Below, in pieces: positions 11,552 through 54,310 of a stretch of DNA of 64,000 bases. The stretch spans positions 734,808 through 798,807 of the forward strand of contig NZ_JARRAG010000001.1 in assembly GCF_029589435.1 (NCBI RefSeq), read 5' to 3'. The notes below the pieces were generated by a model. That model had not been told where the DNA came from. It saw nothing but the letters and a program-made list of their open reading frames with translations, and did not search any database. Position numbers and translations under genes: made by a program. Position 1 is the stretch's first letter, and every line of letters begins with the position of its first letter. Source of the DNA: Paludisphaera mucosa. Its GTDB lineage: Bacteria; Planctomycetota; Planctomycetia; Isosphaerales; Isosphaeraceae.

Positions 11552-13648
11552 ATGCCGGAAGAAACCATCGACGCCGGTCTGCTCGAGCAGACGAAGAATC
11601 AGATCCGCAAGCTGGTGGCCGAGATCGCCGACCTGGCCGAGTCGGACGTCCAGCCGGCCGAGTTCTACGGGGAGTTCCTCAACCGGGCCGTGGCGGCCAC
11701 CGCCGCGTCCGGGGGCGCCTTCTGGCTGCTGGACGGCCGCGGCGGGCTGAGGCTCCAGTACCAGCTCGACTTCGCCCAGACGGGCCTGATGGACGGCCGC
11801 GTCAAGACGGCCCCGCACGACGCGCTGCTCGGCTGCATGATCCAGGCCACTCAGCCCCAGGTCATCCCCCCCGGCGCGGTGATCGAGGGCATGCCCCAGG
11901 CGTTCAACCCGACCCACCTGACGGTGATCCTGGCCCCGCTGATCGTCGACAAGCAGGTCGTCGGCCTGCTCGAGATCCTGATGGATCCCTCGCGGCGGGC
12001 GGCCCAGCAGAAGAGCACGCTGCGGTTCGTCGGCGACCTCACCGACCTGGCCGCGAACTATCTGAAGAACCGCCAGATGCGGCAGATGGTCTCGCAGCAG
12101 CGGATGTGGAACCAGCTCGAGACCTTCACCCACCAGATCCACCACACGCTCGACTTCAAGGAGACGTGCTACGCGGTCGTCAACGACGGCAAGCGGCTCG
12201 TCGGCTGCGACCGCCTGAGCGTCGCCCTGAAGCTCTCGGGGCGGACCCTGGTCGAGGCGATCAGCGGCCAGGAGGTCGTCGAGCAGCGGTCGAACCAGGT
12301 CCGCGAGCTGACCAAGCTCTGCAAGGCCGTCCTGCGGTCGGGCGAGGACCTGGTCTACACCGGCCACACCGAGGGCTTCGCCCCCGACATCCGCGACGCC
12401 CTGGAGCTGTACGTCGACGAGTCGGGCTCGAAGGCCGTCGCCGTGGTCCTGCTCTACAAGCCCGAGAAGGAAGAGGGGACCGAGCGCAAGGAGAAGGTGG
12501 CCTACGGCTGCCTGATCGCCGAGCAGATCGGCGACGAGGTCGCCCCGACCGACATGCACGCCCGGACCGAGGTGGTCTCGCGGCACGCCTCGACGGCCCT
12601 CTGGAACGCCCAGGAGCACCACCGGATCTTCCTCCGGCCGGTGCTCAAGGCGATGGGCTCGCCCTGGCGGCTGCTGCGGGGCCGGACCCTCGCCAAGATC
12701 CTGGCCGTGCTGGCCCTGGTCGTGGCGATCATCGCGGCCCTGACCTTCGTCCCCTGGAACCTGCGGATCGAGGGCCGCGGCTCGCTGCTCCCCGAGAAGC
12801 GGAGCATCGTCTACGCCCCCAACCCCGGCATCATCGTCGACGTCCCCGTCGAGCACGGCGGCCACGTCAAGCAGGGCGAGGTGATCGCCCGCCTCGACAG
12901 CCGCGAGCTGGAGAAGGAGCTGAAGAAGCTCCAGGCCGAGTACAACAAGGCCAACTCGCAGGGCCTGATCCTCCGCCAGCAGGAGCAGGCGGCCAACCAG
13001 CGCGAGCAGAACAAGCAGGAGGCGCTGCAGCTGGAGGCCCAGCTCACCGAGGCCCAGATCACCGCCCGCAGCACCAAGGAGCAGATCGACATCACCAAGG
13101 AGCAGATCCAGGCGATGTCGGTGGTCGCCCCCCACGACGGCATCATCACCACCTGGCAGGTCAAGCAGAACCTGCTGGGCCGGCCGGTCGACATCGGCAC
13201 CGAGCTGCTCCAGCTCGCCGAGACCGACGGCGAGTGGGTGCTGGAGGTCGAGGTCCCCGACGACGACATGGGGCCCATCCTCGCCGCCCAGTCGAAGCTC
13301 GACGCCGAGGTCGCCGCCGGGGCCAAGCCGGCCGGCTCGGCCCTCTCGGCCTACTTCGTGGTGATGACCGAGCCCGAGCACCGGTACCAGGGCTACATCC
13401 GGCGGATCGCGTCGAAGGCGGAGACCAAGACCGAGAGCGCCGAGCAGCGGCACACGGTGAAGGTCGTCGTCGGCTTCAACGACGCGGTCCGCAACGAGTT
13501 CCTGGCCCGCAACCAGGAGTTCCGCCCCGGCGCCGAGGTCCGCGCCCGGATCGACTGCGGCGACGCCCGCCTGGCCTACGTCCTGTTCCGCAAGGTCGTC
13601 CAGGTGTGGCACGAGTCGGTCCTCTTCCGGTGGCCGTTCCTCCGCTGA
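11552..13648 (+). CDS. GAF-GAF-TM-HlyD hybrid: cytoplasmic sensor fused to periplasmic adaptor
   Basis: 698 residues. Residues 1-170 and about 190-355 look like two GAF domains (AFWLLDGRGGLRL..., then GCDRLSVALKL...), cytoplasmic ligand-binding modules. One membrane helix follows at 382-402. The rest is an HlyD/membrane-fusion adaptor: first lipoyl half at 412-450 (IVYAPNPGIIVDVPVEHGG), a long Glu/Gln-rich coiled coil at 450-522, second lipoyl half from 522 (VVAPHDGIITTW) and a beta-barrel to the C-terminus. The GAF domains would lie inside the cell and the adaptor in the periplasm. It is first gene of an operon with two more adaptor genes. No kinase or output enzyme domain is present. Confidence 0.88.
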   Translation: MPEETIDAGLLEQTKNQIRKLVAEIADLAESDVQPAEFYGEFLNRAVAATAASGGAFWLLDGRGGLRLQYQLDFAQTGLMDGRVKTAPHDALLGCMIQATQPQVIPPGAVIEGMPQAFNPTHLTVILAPLIVDKQVVGLLEILMDPSRRAAQQKSTLRFVGDLTDLAANYLKNRQMRQMVSQQRMWNQLETFTHQIHHTLDFKETCYAVVNDGKRLVGCDRLSVALKLSGRTLVEAISGQEVVEQRSNQVRELTKLCKAVLRSGEDLVYTGHTEGFAPDIRDALELYVDESGSKAVAVVLLYKPEKEEGTERKEKVAYGCLIAEQIGDEVAPTDMHARTEVVSRHASTALWNAQEHHRIFLRPVLKAMGSPWRLLRGRTLAKILAVLALVVAIIAALTFVPWNLRIEGRGSLLPEKRSIVYAPNPGIIVDVPVEHGGHVKQGEVIARLDSRELEKELKKLQAEYNKANSQGLILRQQEQAANQREQNKQEALQLEAQLTEAQITARSTKEQIDITKEQIQAMSVVAPHDGIITTWQVKQNLLGRPVDIGTELLQLAETDGEWVLEVEVPDDDMGPILAAQSKLDAEVAAGAKPAGSALSAYFVVMTEPEHRYQGYIRRIASKAETKTESAEQRHTVKVVVGFNDAVRNEFLARNQEFRPGAEVRARIDCGDARLAYVLFRKVVQVWHESVLFRWPFLR

Positions 13649-13747
13649 GCCTCGGCCCCCCGGATCCCGAACCTCGCGAGCCCGGCGCGTCCCACCGGGC
13701 CCCCCTTACACCGCTTCCGAACGTCTCGAGTGGAGGATCGCCCCGAA

Positions 13748-14680
13748 ATGACCACCTGGAAGACCGCCGCATTCGTGGGCCTGAGCGCCCTGGCGACCCT
13801 GTCCATGGCCGCCGTCGGCCAGAGCGGGCCCGCCCAGTCTCCCGCCGCCGCCACCCTCGTCCTCGACTCCCACGACCAGCTCGCCACCATCGACTGGATC
13901 GAGAAGTCCGACGTCGCCGCCCTCCGCGAGGGCGTCATCGAGAAGATGGAGCTGCGCCTGGGCGACGCCGTCCAGGAGGGCGCGGTCATCGGCACGCTCC
14001 ACAAGGAGATCGCCGAGCTGACCGTCGCCAAGAGCAAGCTCACGGCCGAGAACGAGGGCCCGATCCTGAAGGCCGACGCCGCCAAGGAGGTCGCCGCCTC
14101 GGTCGTCGCCCGCAACCGCCGGCTGGTCGCCCGCAAGGCCGACATGGTCTCCCAGGAGGAGATGACCAAGTCCGAGGGCGAGTTCAAGGTCGCCATGGCC
14201 CAGCTCAAGGAGGCCCAGGAGCAGGACGCGATCAACGAGGCCGAGCTGGCCCTGGCCGTCCAGATGCTCAAGGAGCACACGATCGCCGCGCCGTTCCCCG
14301 GCATCGTCATCAAGCGCTACAAGGAGCCCGGCGAGAGCGTGCGGGCGAACGAGGCCGTCGTCCAGATCGGCAACCTGGCCCGGCTCTCGGCCACCGCGTT
14401 CGTGCCCATCGACTACGCCTTCCGCGTCAAGGTCGGCCAGGTCGTCGAGCTGCAGGCCCGCCTCGAGGGGAGCCGCGGCGACCAGCCGATCGAACGCAAG
14501 GTCTTCCGGGGCGTCATCAAATTCGTCGACCCCCAGGTCCAGGCCATCGCCGAGAGCGCCGTCCGCGTCCGCGCCGAGTTCGAGAACCCGAACCTCGAGC
14601 TGCGGCCCGGCGTGAAGGCGGCCCTGACCATCTTCCTGAGCGACGACGTCGCCGCCCGGCCGTCGCCGACGGCCCGCTGA
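13748..14680 (+). CDS. HlyD/RND-type periplasmic adaptor protein
   Basis: 310 residues. The ATG at 13748 starts a signal peptide or anchor (MTTWKTAAFVGLSALATLSMAAVG). Then come a first lipoyl half (VAALREGVIEKMELRLGDAV), a short alpha-hairpin of about residues 90-175, the second lipoyl half (HTIAAPFPGIVIKRYKEPGE) and a beta-barrel ending with the typical NPNLELRPGVKAALTIF. Membrane-fusion proteins of this family bridge inner-membrane transporters and outer-membrane channels. It lies 99 bases after the GAF-HlyD gene and 67 bases before the M50-HlyD gene on the same strand. It is shorter than E. coli AcrA (about 370 processed). Confidence 0.92.
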   Translation: MTTWKTAAFVGLSALATLSMAAVGQSGPAQSPAAATLVLDSHDQLATIDWIEKSDVAALREGVIEKMELRLGDAVQEGAVIGTLHKEIAELTVAKSKLTAENEGPILKADAAKEVAASVVARNRRLVARKADMVSQEEMTKSEGEFKVAMAQLKEAQEQDAINEAELALAVQMLKEHTIAAPFPGIVIKRYKEPGESVRANEAVVQIGNLARLSATAFVPIDYAFRVKVGQVVELQARLEGSRGDQPIERKVFRGVIKFVDPQVQAIAESAVRVRAEFENPNLELRPGVKAALTIFLSDDVAARPSPTAR

Positions 14681-14747
14681 ATTTCGTCGCGTCGAACCGG
14701 GCCGGGACGAGGACCTTCCGCACGGAACCGCCGAGGAACGCCGATCG

Positions 14748-16934
14748 ATGAGCGCCGCCCCCTCCACCACCCCGGCCCCCTACGGACAGGCCGCCGAGCA
14801 CCTCCGGGTGAAGCTCCGCCCGGATCTCGTGGTCCAGCCCCAGTTCTACGAGGGGATGACCCACTACGTCATCAAGGACCCGCTGGCGCTGAAGTACTTC
14901 CGATTCAAGATCGAGGAGTACTTCCTGCTGCAGCAGTTCGACGGCAAGAACAACCTCCAGGACGTCAAGCGGGCCTTCGAGCGCAAGTACCGGCCCCAGA
15001 CGATCTCGATCGACGACCTGACGCGGTTCGTCGCCCAGCTCCACGAGGCGGGCGTCGTCCAGATCGACAGCCCGGAGCAGGCCGCCGCCCTGATCCGCCG
15101 CCGCCGCAAGAACAAGTGGCGGAAGGTCTGGGGGTTCCTCGCCAACATCCTGTTCATCAAGATCCCGGTCCTCGACCCCGAGCGGCTGCTGACCTGGATG
15201 TACCCGGCCTTCCGCTGGATCTTCACCCGCTGGTTCGTCGTCGGGAGCGTCGCCCTGATGCTCGCCGCCTTGACCTTGGTCGTCAGCGAGTGGAGCCAGT
15301 TCTACGCCAAGCTCCCCGAGTTCCAGAGCTTCTTCAACTGGTGGACGATCTTCACGTTCTGGATCAGCCTGGCCGTCGTGAAGATCATCCACGAGTTCGG
15401 CCACGGGCTCACCGCCAAGCATTACGGCGGCGAGGTCCACGAGATGGGGATGCTCTTCCTCGTCCTGACGCCGGCCCTCTACTGCGACGTGACCGACAGC
15501 TGGCTGCTGCCCAACAAGTGGCACCGGATCTGGATCTCGGCCGCCGGCATCTACGTCGAGCTGTTCCTGGCCAGCATCGCGACCTTCGTCTGGTTCAACA
15601 CCGAGCAGGGGCTGCTGAACAGCCTGTCGATGGCCGTCATGTTCATCTGCTCGGTGAACACGGTGCTGTTCAACGCCAACCCGCTGCTGCGGTACGACGG
15701 CTACTACGTGATGTCGGACTGGCTGGAGATCCCCAACCTGCGGATCAAGAGCACCCAGTTCTTCACCTACCTGATCCAGGAGAAGGTGCTCGGCCTGGAA
15801 GTCCCCGTCCAGAGCTACATGCCGCGGTCGCGGCGGTCGCTCTTCGTGACCTACGCGGTGGCAAGCTACCTGTACCGCTGGGTGGTCACGTTCAGCATCC
15901 TGTTCTTCCTGTCGCAGGTCCTCAAGCCGTACAAGCTGCAGGCGGTCAGCTACATGCTGGCCCTGGGCTCGCTCGTGCCTCTGCTGGCCATGCCCATCTA
16001 CCAGATCGGTAAGTTCCTACGCACGCCCGGGAGGATGCGCAAAGTGAAGAAAGCTCGCGCGGCCGCGTTCGCCGCGGCGTTCGCAGCCGCCGTGGCCGGG
16101 ATCCTGCTGATCCCCACCCCGCTGCGCGTCCAGGGCACGTTCGTCCTGTCGCCCGCCAAGCCCACCGAACTCTACACCGAGGTCGAGGGCCAGCTGGTCG
16201 AGCTCAACGTCCGCGACGGCGACTGGGTCAAGGAGGGCGCGGTCCTCGCCAAGCTCGTCAACCGCGACAAGCAGAAGGAGCTGATCCAGCGCCAGTCGGA
16301 GCACGACACGTACTGGTTCAAGGCCCTCCACTACAGCCGCAGCCCCGAGAACGAGGGCCGCGCGACGGCCCGCCAGTGCGTCCGGATGGCCGAGGAGCTG
16401 GAGCCGGCGCTGGCGAAGATCAGCGAGCAGCTCGGCAAGCTGGTCATCACCGCCCCCCGCGACGGCCAGGTGCTGGGCGTCCCGCTCCCCGAGACCCTGG
16501 GGCAGTGGATCAAGCCCGGCAAGGCCCTCTGCGAGGTGGCCGACCCCCACCACCTGGAGGCTCACCTGATCGTCGACCAGTCGGACATCGACCTGATCCG
16601 GCTCGACCGCAAGGTCCCGGCGTGGGTCAAGGTCTACGGCCGGTCCGAGCTGACGCTCAAGAGCGAGGTCGCGCAGATCGCCAAGCGCAACCGCGAGGAG
16701 ATCCCCCCCGAGCTGTCGAACACGGCCGGCGGCGAGATCGCCGCCAAGCCCGACCCCAAGACCGGCCAGGTCAAGCCCCAGTCGGCCGTCTACGAGGTCG
16801 TGATCCCGATCGAGAACCCCAACCTGGAATTCCATCCCGGCCAGCGCGGGTTCGCCAAGCTCGACGCCGGCACCCACACCTTCGGCTGGTGGCTCTGGCG
16901 GCTCCTCACCAAGACCTTCCACTTCACCATCTGA
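14748..16934 (+). CDS. PqqD-like / M50 zinc metalloprotease / HlyD fusion protein
   Basis: 728 residues. Residues 18-107 (LRVKLRPDLVVQPQFYEGMT..., ending LHEAGVVQI) fit a PqqD-like winged helix, the fold that binds leader peptides in ribosomal peptide pathways. Residues 155-420 are a polytopic M50 (site-2) protease: HEFGH at 215-219 supplies two zinc ligands and Glu216, and NPLLRYDG at 311-318 supplies the third ligand Asp317; CDVTDSW at 246-252 is also characteristic. A membrane helix at 436-455 leads into an HlyD part with a lipoyl-type motif (ELYTEVEGQLVELNVRDGDW) and a C-terminal barrel. The nearest known architecture is the 'putative peptide zinc metalloprotease' group, which includes Bacillus YydH. 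It is last in the operon. Confidence 0.9.
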   Translation: MSAAPSTTPAPYGQAAEHLRVKLRPDLVVQPQFYEGMTHYVIKDPLALKYFRFKIEEYFLLQQFDGKNNLQDVKRAFERKYRPQTISIDDLTRFVAQLHEAGVVQIDSPEQAAALIRRRRKNKWRKVWGFLANILFIKIPVLDPERLLTWMYPAFRWIFTRWFVVGSVALMLAALTLVVSEWSQFYAKLPEFQSFFNWWTIFTFWISLAVVKIIHEFGHGLTAKHYGGEVHEMGMLFLVLTPALYCDVTDSWLLPNKWHRIWISAAGIYVELFLASIATFVWFNTEQGLLNSLSMAVMFICSVNTVLFNANPLLRYDGYYVMSDWLEIPNLRIKSTQFFTYLIQEKVLGLEVPVQSYMPRSRRSLFVTYAVASYLYRWVVTFSILFFLSQVLKPYKLQAVSYMLALGSLVPLLAMPIYQIGKFLRTPGRMRKVKKARAAAFAAAFAAAVAGILLIPTPLRVQGTFVLSPAKPTELYTEVEGQLVELNVRDGDWVKEGAVLAKLVNRDKQKELIQRQSEHDTYWFKALHYSRSPENEGRATARQCVRMAEELEPALAKISEQLGKLVITAPRDGQVLGVPLPETLGQWIKPGKALCEVADPHHLEAHLIVDQSDIDLIRLDRKVPAWVKVYGRSELTLKSEVAQIAKRNREEIPPELSNTAGGEIAAKPDPKTGQVKPQSAVYEVVIPIENPNLEFHPGQRGFAKLDAGTHTFGWWLWRLLTKTFHFTI

Positions 16935-17134: not shown

Positions 17135-17902
17135 ATGAGACTCTCCTGGAAACTCGGCCGGATCGCGGGGATCGACGTATTCCTGCACCCGACCTTCTTC
17201 CTGATCTTCCTTTTCGAGGAAGCCCGCACGCGCCTGCCGCTGCTCCTGGCGATGTTCGGCTGCGTGCTGCTGCACGAGTTCGGCCACGCCCTGGCGGCCC
17301 GGCGTTTCGGCATCGAGACGGCCGACATCACCCTCTACCCGATCGGCGGCGTCGCCCGCCTGACGCGAATGCCCCGCGCCCCGGGCGTGGAGCTGGCGAT
17401 CGCGCTGGCGGGGCCCGCCGTGAACCTGGCGATCGCGGCCGGTCTCTATCTTTCGCTCGGCGTCTTTTCGACCGCCGGGATGGGCGAGTTCTTCGCCGAG
17501 CTGCTGGTGGTGAACCTGGTGCTGGCCGCGTTCAACATGATCCCGGCGTTCCCGATGGACGGCGGCCGCGTGCTGCGGGCCATGCTCAGCGGCTGGCTCG
17601 GCCGGGCGCGGGCCACGACGTTCGCGGCGAGCGTGGGCCGGGCGCTGGCGGTCGGCTTCGGGGTCTACAGCCTGCTGAACCTCGACCTTCTCCCGGTCGC
17701 GCTCGCCGCCTTCATCTACATGGCGGGGGGGGCCGAAGAGGCGGGCGTTCTGGCCGAGGAGCGGCGTCGGGGGGGCTCCGTCGAGGGCGTCGATTGGAGC
17801 GCGCCGGCGGGCTACCGCTGGGTCCAGACCGATCAGGGCGTCTGGCGGCTGGCGCCCGCCTCGGCCGCGTCGCGGGCCTCCTCGTGGGGCGGCGTGCGAT
17901 GA
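17135..17902 (+). CDS. Site-2 protease family protein (peptidase M50)
   Basis: 255 residues with about six membrane helices. Zinc ligands are His47 and His51 in HEFGH with Glu48 as the general base, and Asp142 in NMIPAFPMDGGRV, the standard third motif. MRLSWKLGRIAGIDVFLHPT at the start is the family N-terminus, so I take the ATG at 17135, which has GAAGG at a suitable distance. No PDZ or CBS domain is present, so it is the minimal SpoIVFB/Rip type. Substrates of this group are membrane-bound regulators. It lies 200 bases behind the M50-HlyD operon, separated by a hairpin, and its stop overlaps the next gene's start. Confidence 0.93.
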   Translation: MRLSWKLGRIAGIDVFLHPTFFLIFLFEEARTRLPLLLAMFGCVLLHEFGHALAARRFGIETADITLYPIGGVARLTRMPRAPGVELAIALAGPAVNLAIAAGLYLSLGVFSTAGMGEFFAELLVVNLVLAAFNMIPAFPMDGGRVLRAMLSGWLGRARATTFAASVGRALAVGFGVYSLLNLDLLPVALAAFIYMAGGAEEAGVLAEERRRGGSVEGVDWSAPAGYRWVQTDQGVWRLAPASAASRASSWGGVR

Positions 17903-51861: not shown

Positions 51862-53034
51862 TCAGGTGCGGATCTGCCCCCAGCGGTACGTCGCCAGCAT
51901 GCCGAAGATGAAGAGCGGCATCCAGGCGGCCAGCGCCGGCGAGAGCACCCCGTCGCCGCCGAGGTACTGGCAGACGATGCCGGCCCCGTAGAACACGGCC
52001 GAGTTCCCCAGCGCGAAGCCCAGGTTGATGAACATGTTCCTCCCGTAGCCGCCGAGGACCAGGGGCAGGCTCATGAACATCAGCGTCAGGGCCAGGAAGG
52101 GCCGCAGGGCTCGCGCGTGGATCGTCCCCTCGATGCTGACCCGGTCGTGGCGGTCGGTCGAGGGGTCGACCAGGCCGTTCACCAGCTCGTACATCGTCCC
52201 GTACTGATACCAGCTCGACTTGCGGATCATCACGTCGAACGAGAGCGAGGTGTGCACGAAAACCAGGTCGCCGCTATGCGTCGCGGCGTCGCCGACCGGG
52301 GGCGGGAAGCCCTTCGGGTCGGCGACCTTCACGACGATCGAATCGGGCCGGGTCAGCTCCTCCTCCGGGACCGGCGGCGAGATCTTGGCGCCGCGCACCA
52401 GCCAGCCGCCGCGCAGGGGGGCCGTGGGGTGGTCCTGGGGGATGTAGGTCGCCTCGTCGCCCTCGATCTCGCGGGTCGCCCCGAAGACCTGGATCGGCAC
52501 CGTGACGTTGAACCGCTCCAGGATCGTCCGATGCGCCCGGTCGGCCTTCCGGCCCGAGAACATCAGGAGCCGCGAGTCGTAGGGCGTGGTCTGGACGATG
52601 ACCGCGCTCGTGCCGTCGTCGGCGTGCGACTTCTGCAGCTCCTCGGCGTAGCGCGGGATGATGAACTCCTGGTTGGCGATCGAGAAGAAGCTCACGATGA
52701 TCGACGAGATGATCACGGGCCGGATGATCCGGTGCGTGCTCACCCCCGCCGCCAGCATGGCGAGCTGCTCGTTGGCCCGCTGCATCCAGGTCACGGTGAA
52801 GATCGCGGCCATCATGCTGATGACGCCGCCGAGCTTGTCGAAGTACTCGGCCTGGCGGACCAGGTAGTAGCGGCCCATCGCCGACATCAGCTGCCCGAAG
52901 CCGACCGTCCGCTTGGTGAACTCGTCGACGTTCGAAAACGCGTCGAGCACGATCCAGAGGCCGACGAACGAGACGTAGCAGGTGACGTAGGCCTTGAAGA
53001 AGGCCCAGAACCGCTGCCGATCCAGGATTCGCAC
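51862..53034 (-). CDS. LptF/LptG family permease (second of pair)
   Basis: 390 residues. YjgP/YjgQ fold: three N-terminal helices (MRILDRQRFWAFFKAYVTCY..), a periplasmic beta-jellyroll of about 200 residues, and three C-terminal helices from about 305. It moves lipopolysaccharide out of the inner membrane with LptB, LptC and LptA. The position after its partner suggests LptG. It lies 31 bases behind the first gene of the pair. LptB is not in this window. Confidence 0.93.
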   Translation of the reverse strand: MRILDRQRFWAFFKAYVTCYVSFVGLWIVLDAFSNVDEFTKRTVGFGQLMSAMGRYYLVRQAEYFDKLGGVISMMAAIFTVTWMQRANEQLAMLAAGVSTHRIIRPVIISSIIVSFFSIANQEFIIPRYAEELQKSHADDGTSAVIVQTTPYDSRLLMFSGRKADRAHRTILERFNVTVPIQVFGATREIEGDEATYIPQDHPTAPLRGGWLVRGAKISPPVPEEELTRPDSIVVKVADPKGFPPPVGDAATHSGDLVFVHTSLSFDVMIRKSSWYQYGTMYELVNGLVDPSTDRHDRVSIEGTIHARALRPFLALTLMFMSLPLVLGGYGRNMFINLGFALGNSAVFYGAGIVCQYLGGDGVLSPALAAWMPLFIFGMLATYRWGQIRT

Positions 53035-53065
53035 GACGCGTCCCCCCCCACCCGGCGTAAACCGA

Positions 53066-54310
53066 TCAGTATTTGATGATCCGAGGGTACACCCAGCCCG
53101 CCAGCAGCGCCAGGACGAGGTTGCTGATCCAGAGCGACTTGTAGGGGGCCATCGTCCCCTCCTTGCCCATGTTGATGCCCAGCAGCATGAGCGGGTAATA
53201 CAGGCCGATGATCGGCAGGAAGCAGGTCATGAACGCGCTCAGGAAGTCGCGCTTGGCGAAGCGGATGCCGATCGGCGCGCCCAGGACCACGAACAGGATG
53301 GAGCCGAAGGCCATCGACGTCCGGAGCTGCTTCTCGGTCTCGAACTCGTCGCTCCGCTTCTTGTAGAAGCTGTTCATGACGAACGACTCCTTGACGTCGT
53401 CCCACTTCACGTCGCCGATCCGGCCGGCCGCGAAGAGCAGGCCGGCGGACATCGCCTCTCGCTTGCGATCGACGGCCAGGTGCTCGCGGGCCTTGGCGAG
53501 CTCGGCGTCCAGCTCCGCGTTGGTGTGCTCCTGGATCGACTTGAGGCCGATCTTCTTGTTGTCCTCCGGCAGCGGGAATTCGAAGGTCTGCCCCTTCTCG
53601 GGCAGGAGCGTGACCTCCTGGCCGCTGCCGTAGTTCTGCACCACGCCCTCTTCCAGGTAGACGACGACCATCTTGCGGTCGAGGTCGAAGTGGAGCCGCG
53701 CGGCCTTCGCCTGGATCGTCGTCGTGTACGTCTCCGACCCGTCGGGGAGCCGGCCCTTCTTCTTGAACGTCGGCTTGATCAGGACCCGGTCCTCGACGTC
53801 GAGCACCTTGATCGAGATCGGGCTGCCGGGGAGCGTGAACTGCTTGTCGCGCTTGAGGAACTTGTAGACGACGTCTTCCATGTCGCGGAAGAGGACGAGC
53901 TTGGCCTCGTGGGCGCTGACGGGGATCCACGTCCGGCTCAGCTGCCAGAGCGTGCCGCTGACCACGCCGCCCAGCAGGATCGTGGGCCAGATGACGGTCA
54001 TGACGCTGAGGCCGGCCGTCTTGACGGCGATGATCTCGTTGTCGCCGGCGATCCGGCCGTACACCACCGTCACCGCGAAGAGCAGCGAGACCGGCGTGGT
54101 GTAGGGGAGGGTGCTGGGGATGATGTACGGGATCAGGTGGAGCATGTCGCGGGGCGTGAGCATCTTGCTGTTCATCGCCTCGGCGGCGACCATGAACAGG
54201 ACGAAGATGCCCGTCATCGTGATCAGCGCCATGGCGAAGGCGCGGAACACTTCCCCCCAGACGTAGCGTTGAAGGATTCCCAAGGCGAGCCCTCCCAGCC
54301 CAGCATCCAT
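53066..54310 (-). CDS. LptF/LptG family permease (first of pair)
   Basis: 414 residues, same fold: helices at about 20-45, 60-80 and 100-125, then a long periplasmic domain of about 170 residues with KPTFKKKGRLPDGSETYTTT, and three helices from about 320. Slightly longer than E. coli LptF (366). It is first in transcription order, so LptF is the likely equivalent. The start MDAGLGG may be a few codons too long; GILQRYVWGEVF is the conserved N-terminus. Together with its neighbour it shows that the cell exports an LPS-type lipid. Confidence 0.93.
   Translation of the reverse strand: MDAGLGGLALGILQRYVWGEVFRAFAMALITMTGIFVLFMVAAEAMNSKMLTPRDMLHLIPYIIPSTLPYTTPVSLLFAVTVVYGRIAGDNEIIAVKTAGLSVMTVIWPTILLGGVVSGTLWQLSRTWIPVSAHEAKLVLFRDMEDVVYKFLKRDKQFTLPGSPISIKVLDVEDRVLIKPTFKKKGRLPDGSETYTTTIQAKAARLHFDLDRKMVVVYLEEGVVQNYGSGQEVTLLPEKGQTFEFPLPEDNKKIGLKSIQEHTNAELDAELAKAREHLAVDRKREAMSAGLLFAAGRIGDVKWDDVKESFVMNSFYKKRSDEFETEKQLRTSMAFGSILFVVLGAPIGIRFAKRDFLSAFMTCFLPIIGLYYPLMLLGINMGKEGTMAPYKSLWISNLVLALLAGWVYPRIIKY

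Follow-up and report, generated by a model that had tools for sequence, protein, structure and literature searches.

The GAF-HlyD, HlyD and PqqD-M50-HlyD gene trio of Paludisphaera mucosa as the probable core of an export apparatus for LEPR-XLL-tagged proteins

Background

A conserved locus encoding GAF-HlyD, HlyD and M50-HlyD proteins beside a secondary SecA_DEAD protein has been reported from several phyla by Kamneva, Poudel and Ward in 2015 (PMC4452313). The present analysis concerns a trio of genes of this kind in a 64,000-nucleotide stretch of the genome of Paludisphaera mucosa (NZ_JARRAG010000001.1, positions 734,808-798,807), which is referred to as the window and to which the positions given below belong. 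An initial sequence-only reading of the window had taken this three-gene arrangement for an undescribed peptide processing and export system without a pump. Since the same proteins are reported in the sections of PMC4452313 on the SecA_DEAD locus, the trio is not new. Both loci have GAF-HlyD, HlyD/biotin_lipoyl and M50-HlyD proteins encoded together, a secondary SecA_DEAD and no ABC transporter. OEP proteins are sometimes adjacent to the published locus; its SecA_DEAD gene lies in the neighbourhood, whereas that of P. mucosa is 0.38 Mb away, and the paper reports unlinked cases too. Its authors proposed SecA as a substitute for the ABC ATPase and the M50 helices as a possible pore, and described the broader role of the locus as completely unknown. 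A four-gene locus of Methylobacterium extorquens AM1 is among those that the paper names. The sections on the locus name no substrate, and a term search of the main text found neither DUF3467 nor PqqD, nor any M50-prefixed word other than Peptidase_M50.

Type I secretion is the second system for comparison. The trio shares with it the HlyD-type adaptors, which are identified both by profiles and by Foldseek, and, at the proteobacterial loci, TolC. The usual type I secretion signal is C-terminal, whereas the signal proposed here for the substrates of the trio is N-terminal. The trio also differs in having no constant ABC ATPase partner, either among the window neighbours scanned or in related loci, where an ABC ATPase family is present in just 9 of 119 clustered stretches, at scattered positions and on both strands. 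The refuting result named in the sequence-only reading, an operon that is always next to a known ABC exporter, was thus not obtained. In the accessory SecA2 systems a second SecA serves a subset of substrates; the short SecA of P. mucosa differs from these in having no SecA_SW or SEC-C match, and a relative falls short of the cut-offs of four SecA2 models (615, 547, 456 and 434 bits, with cut-offs of 1085, 930, 725 and 1100 respectively).

MpaP is an RRE-dependent intramembrane peptidase that removes the daptide leader (PMC10036551). The third gene of the trio shares with MpaP and with YydH/LiaK a PqqD/RRE-like domain and an M50 intramembrane protease, and matches both models under their equivalog cut-offs (MpaP, NF041824: E-value 4.5e-54, 184 bits against 300; YydH/LiaK, NF058609: 45.1 bits against 225). 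It differs from them in its extra HlyD part and in its neighbours, which are adaptors and giant genes rather than peptide-modifying enzymes.

The trio itself is thus partly known, and what is new here is a likely substrate class, a DUF3467 partner and a proposed tag-reading mechanism. In the literature searched, outside which most subscription papers lie, we found neither a link between LEPR-XLL and this locus nor an export route for LEPR-XLL proteins.

Results and discussion

The trio probably forms the membrane core of a type-I-like export apparatus for often giant proteins that carry the LEPR-XLL/Planc_extracel tag. The features on which this proposal is built are as follows.

11552-13648, + strand: gene 1 (698 residues), with GAF domains, one strong membrane segment and an HlyD/MFP part (domain profiles, hydropathy)
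11657-12070, + strand: gene 1 residues 36-173, N-terminal GAF-like domain (GAF_3 and GAF_2, E-value 8.7e-4, under the Pfam cut-off)
12152-12535, + strand: gene 1 residues 201-328, GAF domain (PF01590, E-value 2.1e-8)
13748-14680, + strand: gene 2 (310 residues), HlyD/RND-type adaptor with a hydrophobic N-terminus (profiles, hydropathy)
14748-16934, + strand: gene 3 (728 residues), with a PqqD-like domain, an M50 intramembrane protease and an HlyD/MFP part
14799-15068, + strand: gene 3 residues 18-107, PqqD/RRE-like domain, proposed tag binder (model secondary structure, homologues)
15390-15404, + strand: gene 3 residues 215-219, HEFGH zinc motif (H215, E216 and H219 invariant)
15678-15701, + strand: gene 3 residues 311-318, NPLLRYDG (N311, P312, R315, D317 and G318 invariant)
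16113-16916, + strand: gene 3 residues 456-723, MacA/MexA/AcrA-like adaptor part (Foldseek E-value 6.9e-14; PF13437)

Domain organisation and conservation of the trio

The three genes are separated by 99 bp (genes 1-2) and 67 bp (genes 2-3), and an alternative in-frame GTG start of gene 2 is possible at 13730. Gene calls and profiles bear out the order GAF-HlyD, HlyD, PqqD-M50-HlyD of the sequence-only reading. That reading had also given gene 1 two GAF domains, of which the one at residues 201-328 is firmly assigned and the one at residues 36-173 remains below the cut-off. The HlyD part of gene 1 matches HlyD_3 (E-value 6.1e-10) in the Pfam search, and the hydrophobicity of the whole protein peaks at residues 383-401; gene 2 matches HlyD_D23 (E-value 1.2e-16) and, over the cut-off, RND_mfp.

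Gene 3 has a Pfam match to M50 (E-value 3.8e-9, 36.7 bits against a cut-off of 27.2) and one to HlyD_3 over the cut-off (E-value 1.4e-13). The two protease motifs lie where they had been placed, and H215, E216, H219, N311, P312, R315, D317 and G318 are unchanged in alignments of 18 and of 45 homologues. The Pfam score, the HExxH motif and the NPxxRxDG region expected of a Peptidase M50 are hence all found in this protein. A search of PDB sequences with the gene 3 profile gave, for the most part, adaptors and domains of the biotinyl type that match its C-terminal part, with a single weak M50 match (MJ0392, E-value 0.055) and no PqqD chain listed.

The N-terminal domain of gene 3 appears to be PqqD/RRE-like. 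Its own copy matches PqqD weakly (E-value 0.2, 12.4 bits against a Pfam cut-off of 23.4), and support for the assignment comes from some of the homologues and from the modelled secondary structure. A PqqD match at an E-value of 0.01 or better is present in 9 of 45 homologues; PqqD-type models match 3 of 10 proteobacterial homologues and the Methylosinus homologue, all under the cut-off, and TIGR03859 matches two proteobacterial homologues with E-values of 1e-5 and 7e-6, again under that of the model. In the AlphaFold model of gene 3 (mean pLDDT 84.7) the order of strands and helices in the N-terminal domain fits PqqD/RRE and is followed by a helical membrane part and then by the adaptor. The best 50 of 357 Foldseek matches of the whole model show adaptors, and the adaptor part is matched to AcrA, MexA and MacA.

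The M50-HlyD protein is encoded in all 59 genomes of a sample of relatives and in 46 of 199 genomes sampled across the phylum (E-value of 1.5e-20 or better); at the looser threshold of 0.001, 77 of the 199 match gene 3, many through HlyD parts only. Presence in the phylum sample is counted among the matches listed, part of the candidates per genome having been scored (for example 2 of 18 for the gene 3 product and 21 of 57 for LEPR-XLL), and the genome tallies for SecA, DUF3467 and LEPR-XLL were made from hand-transcribed match lists. Loci were surveyed for the best 80 of at least 555 relatives among named genomes; 79 of these are planctomycete by title, some genera being placed from recall, and one is titled just 'bacterium'. 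Neighbouring genes were identified through profile searches of open reading frames (ORFs). Of the 57 loci for which 4 kb or more of upstream sequence was available, 47 keep the order GAF-HlyD, HlyD, M50-HlyD, which, with the presence of M50-HlyD in 59 of 59 relatives, argues that the arrangement is more than chance.

Giant tagged genes beside homologous operons of proteobacteria

A tblastn search of plasmids with the gene 3 product matched 79 records, 27 of them covering at least 80% of the protein, from which 19 loci, chosen for variety and not randomly, were read. Directly 5' of the homologous operon, 17 of the 19 have a gene of about 2,300-16,200 residues, which in two cases (Ensifer, Pseudohalocynthiibacter) is an unannotated ORF open at the end of the stretch. 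The Tistrella locus has large ORFs 4.4 kb 3' of the operon. A tag of the form (L/M/I)E(P/S)R-x-(L/M/V)-(L/F/M/Y) stands near the start in 15 of 16 readable N-termini, and three giants are already annotated with LEPR-XLL in their records. For the giants of Alisedimentitalea and Rhizobium johnstonii (loci L206 and L212) the annotation places the start a short way past the tag, so that database copies of such giants may lack it. Among 866 complete ORFs of 150 residues or more in the plasmid loci, five have the strict tag within their first 120 residues, and all five are large genes of their locus (1,872-4,242 residues). No ordinary signal peptide was seen around the tag on inspection by eye.

The proteobacterial loci show two arrangements. 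The operon is accompanied by DUF3467 and/or SecA in the first and by TolC plus a pair of HlyD genes in the second; three unannotated plasmid loci were left out of both.

The E. coli plasmid pKL53-L (L198, L209) carries a SecA-less form of the locus with a 13.4-kb Ig-like gene containing LESRQLF, and the M50-HlyD gene of this form matches 24 of 5,426 complete E. coli genomes. Several TolC-type loci (L194, L207, L208, L217 and L219; Kosakonia, Niveispirillum, Azospirillum, Burkholderia) have genes labelled 'tail fiber protein' nearby, two of which begin with a signal-peptide-like stretch as judged by eye.

Co-occurrence of tag and apparatus in planctomycetes

The idea that proteins with LEPR-XLL or Planc_extracel are the cargo was set down before the genome-wide tag tests. 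The tag approximates to xExLExRxLLxAD after an R/K-rich N-terminus. LEPR-XLL (NF012209) exceeds its cut-off in 21 of the 199 genomes, 20 of which also encode M50-HlyD; counted by family, it is found in 13 of 25 with M50-HlyD and 1 of 56 without. In an enlarged sample of 392 genomes, of which 98 encode M50-HlyD, LEPR-XLL matches 52 at an E-value of 0.05 or better, 47 of them within the 98. The 193 newly added genomes taken alone give 27 of 52 with M50-HlyD against 4 of 141 without (Fisher 1e-14). The five LEPR-XLL genomes without M50-HlyD include one match in an apparently non-coding frame (G165, which is also the single exception among the 21), one below the cut-off (G249) and one that holds a stop (G355). 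A hand count of the matches listed places the tag and the M50-HlyD gene within 15 kb on one contig in at least 11 of the 47 genomes (G107, G155, G160, G173, G248, G278, G279, G331, G385, G402 and G415).

Twenty places were fetched for inspection of the tag, with a result for all except L234. In P. mucosa the two models together flagged seven places, and at every one of them the tag follows an R/K-rich stretch and is 20-38 residues away from a possible start. Within the window the tag is found in none of the 132 complete ORFs of at least 150 residues.

Short SecA, a candidate motor

The P. mucosa genome has two SecA_DEAD matches, both outside the window. The canonical SecA shows SecA_SW and SEC-C matches; the short SecA, encoded at C1:1128025-1129203 about 0.38 Mb from the trio, shows SecA_DEAD, PP-binding and P-loop matches and, in the same profile search, none to SecA_SW or SEC-C. 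Short SecA genes adjoin the trio in some other genomes, and the description of the trio as lacking a pump in the sequence-only reading is therefore valid only locally. In a tree that held one canonical SecA, the P. mucosa short SecA clusters with nine operon-adjacent planctomycete SecAs, away from the canonical one (support 96/93).

Two or more SecA_DEAD matches are found in 34 of 46 genomes with M50-HlyD and 7 of 153 without (Fisher 2e-21), or by family in 20 of 25 and 5 of 56. Five of the seven (G011, G032, G097, G133, G156) show paired weak matches with best E-values of 1e-69 to 1e-77, as do three of the 34 (G094, G126, G197); such pairs may be one canonical SecA split in two, and all were kept in the counts.

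In the plasmid records L191 (14177-16093) and L193 (15032-17056) the short SecA is labelled 'prepilin peptidase', an annotation that hides it from text searches.

DUF3467, a further partner

Clustering of neighbouring ORFs revealed a protein of 110-130 residues that recurs in 37 of 119 stretches and belongs to DUF3467 (E-value 1.4e-22 for one member). In 24 of the 37 its gene follows gene 3 in the same orientation at a distance of no more than 0.3 kb; seven others are about 4-6 kb upstream, one is 15.6 kb upstream and five are 6-9 kb downstream on the opposite strand. DUF3467 is present in 28 of 46 genomes with M50-HlyD and in 12 of 153 without. P. mucosa has one copy, near the canonical secA and 1.4 Mb from the trio.

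The AlphaFold model of DUF3467 has a mean pLDDT of 82.5 and a pTM of 0.57. A SecB-like chaperone was considered for this protein and rejected, as Foldseek gave no PDB match at an E-value of 0.001 or better and no SecB among the best 50 of 447 matches; a sequence search against the PDB likewise gave no convincing match.

Beside DUF3467 and the canonical secA of P. mucosa is a large gene with the N-terminus ...TPLEGRALLAP... (L063, 9346-19901; L064). In the close relative G199 a stretch of about 20 kb contains the trio together with DUF3467, the canonical secA and a large gene of this kind. Ten genomes (G024, G048, G069, G087, G105, G137, G152, G181, G194 and G198) have open frames of about 215-320 residues with two DUF3467 matches, and in six of the ten a single-domain DUF3467 gene is nearby.

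Proposed mechanism

Beside the observed domains, invariant active site, gene order, partners, tag next to the proteobacterial operon and co-occurrence of tag and apparatus, we infer transport, a motor role, tag binding, cleavage and gating in the following steps. In the cytosol the tag would dock onto the PqqD/RRE-like domain of gene 3, and the short SecA, which retains the ATPase parts, would act as the ATP-driven motor in place of the ABC ATPase, with DUF3467 as a possible small cytosolic partner of the SecA step. Together the HlyD parts of all three proteins would form a conduit through the periplasm that leads to an outer-membrane channel of the TolC type, as suggested by their fold and, for proteobacteria, by gene order; OEP domains have 31 matches elsewhere in the P. 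mucosa genome, and TolC is adjacent to the operon at some proteobacterial loci only. The M50 site may cut the tag within the membrane, as MpaP does with daptide leaders, and the GAF domains of gene 1 may gate the apparatus or report its state. Following the precedent of MpaP, gene 3 can be read as a fusion of tag binder, tag protease and inner-membrane adaptor, with genes 1 and 2 as additional adaptors, the former adding cytosolic sensing. The export theme of the sequence-only reading is retained in this proposal, and the binding and processing of a leader is judged a likely role of the PqqD-M50 protein.

More tentatively, with somewhat less than an even chance of being right in all its parts, we propose that diderm bacteria have a secretion system of a separate kind. 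Its substrates, up to some 16,000 residues long, would be directed by an N-terminal LEPR-XLL tag to a conduit of the HlyD/TolC type that SecA drives, the RRE/intramembrane-protease/adaptor core would read and remove the tag, and DUF3467 and GAF would provide cytosolic control.

Alternative explanations

Several observations weigh against an export apparatus of this composition. Co-occurrence inside one phylum partly reflects shared descent. The first test of the tag, with Planc_extracel (PF07595), gave a weak result (16 of 199 genomes, 7 of them with M50-HlyD), and 51 of the 98 M50-HlyD genomes have no LEPR-XLL match by this short model. At the Magnetospirillum locus the place of the giant is taken by a 492-residue ELWxxDGT protein without the tag from its annotated start. 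DUF3467, as its 12 occurrences in the 153 genomes show, is not exclusive to those with M50-HlyD. In P. mucosa the operon, the short SecA (0.38 Mb) and DUF3467 (1.4 Mb) are unlinked; SecA is near the operon in just 7 of the 47 named loci where 6 kb of room is available, the complete genome G024 has M50-HlyD and one SecA, and the TolC-type arrangement of proteobacteria has neither SecA nor DUF3467 annotated beside the operon. SecA may thus not be the motor, being seldom near the operon and not beside it in this second arrangement. Outside the cluster that includes the P. mucosa short SecA, and separated from it by the canonical SecA, are the short SecAs of five proteobacteria and of three other planctomycetes (two f6 genomes and G107), so that a single origin of the short SecA is not demonstrated.

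A role in maturation or anchoring alone, in which the proteins take a different route across the inner membrane and a sortase-like M50-HlyD complex removes the tag and passes them to the surface, is the best of the alternatives and still an unlikely one. It would agree with a protease site that is invariant in 45 homologues and with the SecA-less proteobacterial arrangement; the several HlyD genes and TolC that adjoin the giants in proteobacteria, and the lack of an ordinary signal peptide around the tag by eye, speak against it. It is less likely still that the trio is an export apparatus in which the short SecA serves some other step, the conduit relying on canonical SecA/SecYEG or drawing its energy from elsewhere. 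The frequent lack of linkage and the absence of SecA beside the second arrangement are as expected of such an apparatus, which has to be set against the strong tendency of a second SecA to occur in genomes with M50-HlyD.

The processing and export of ribosomally synthesised and post-translationally modified peptides (RiPPs), with small precursor peptides as substrates, was the interpretation of the sequence-only reading and now appears very improbable. The PqqD-like and M50 domains and the matches to the daptide and YydH/LiaK protease models are in its favour; it was set aside as the main account because both scores are under their cut-offs, because M50-HlyD is universal in the relatives, unlike a patchy peptide cluster, and because giants are encoded beside the operon in proteobacteria, short precursor ORFs not having been searched for. 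Regulated proteolysis, in which a GAF and M50 sensor would cut membrane-bound regulators and the HlyD parts would just sense the periplasm, accounts for these two domains and for a plain M50 protease gene directly 3' of the operon and is scarcely credible beside the TolC, HlyD and giant genes of homologous operons and the association with the LEPR-XLL tag. Overall the observation of the sequence-only reading is confirmed and its interpretation is partly supported.

Neighbouring genes in the window

The porin that had been noted as divergent from the trio is a Porin_O_P porin. As it is not a TolC, it was not included in the proposed apparatus. No ABC, RND or radical-SAM gene was found by profiles among the trio and the window neighbours scanned, in agreement with the sequence-only reading. 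The separate plain M50 (site-2 type) protease, at 17135-17902 on the + strand, 200 bp 3' of the trio, is absent from that reading. Two adjoining LptF/LptG-type permease genes at 51862-54310 on the - strand are consistent with lipopolysaccharide export in P. mucosa.

Implications

Planctomycetes and many proteobacteria encode enormous surface proteins. If the export apparatus proposed here is correct, the LEPR-XLL tag would be an export signal that gives the tagged proteins a testable route, and the locus described without a substrate in 2015 would gain one. DUF3467 would likewise gain a context, and a SecA would be seen to work without the wing/scaffold part.

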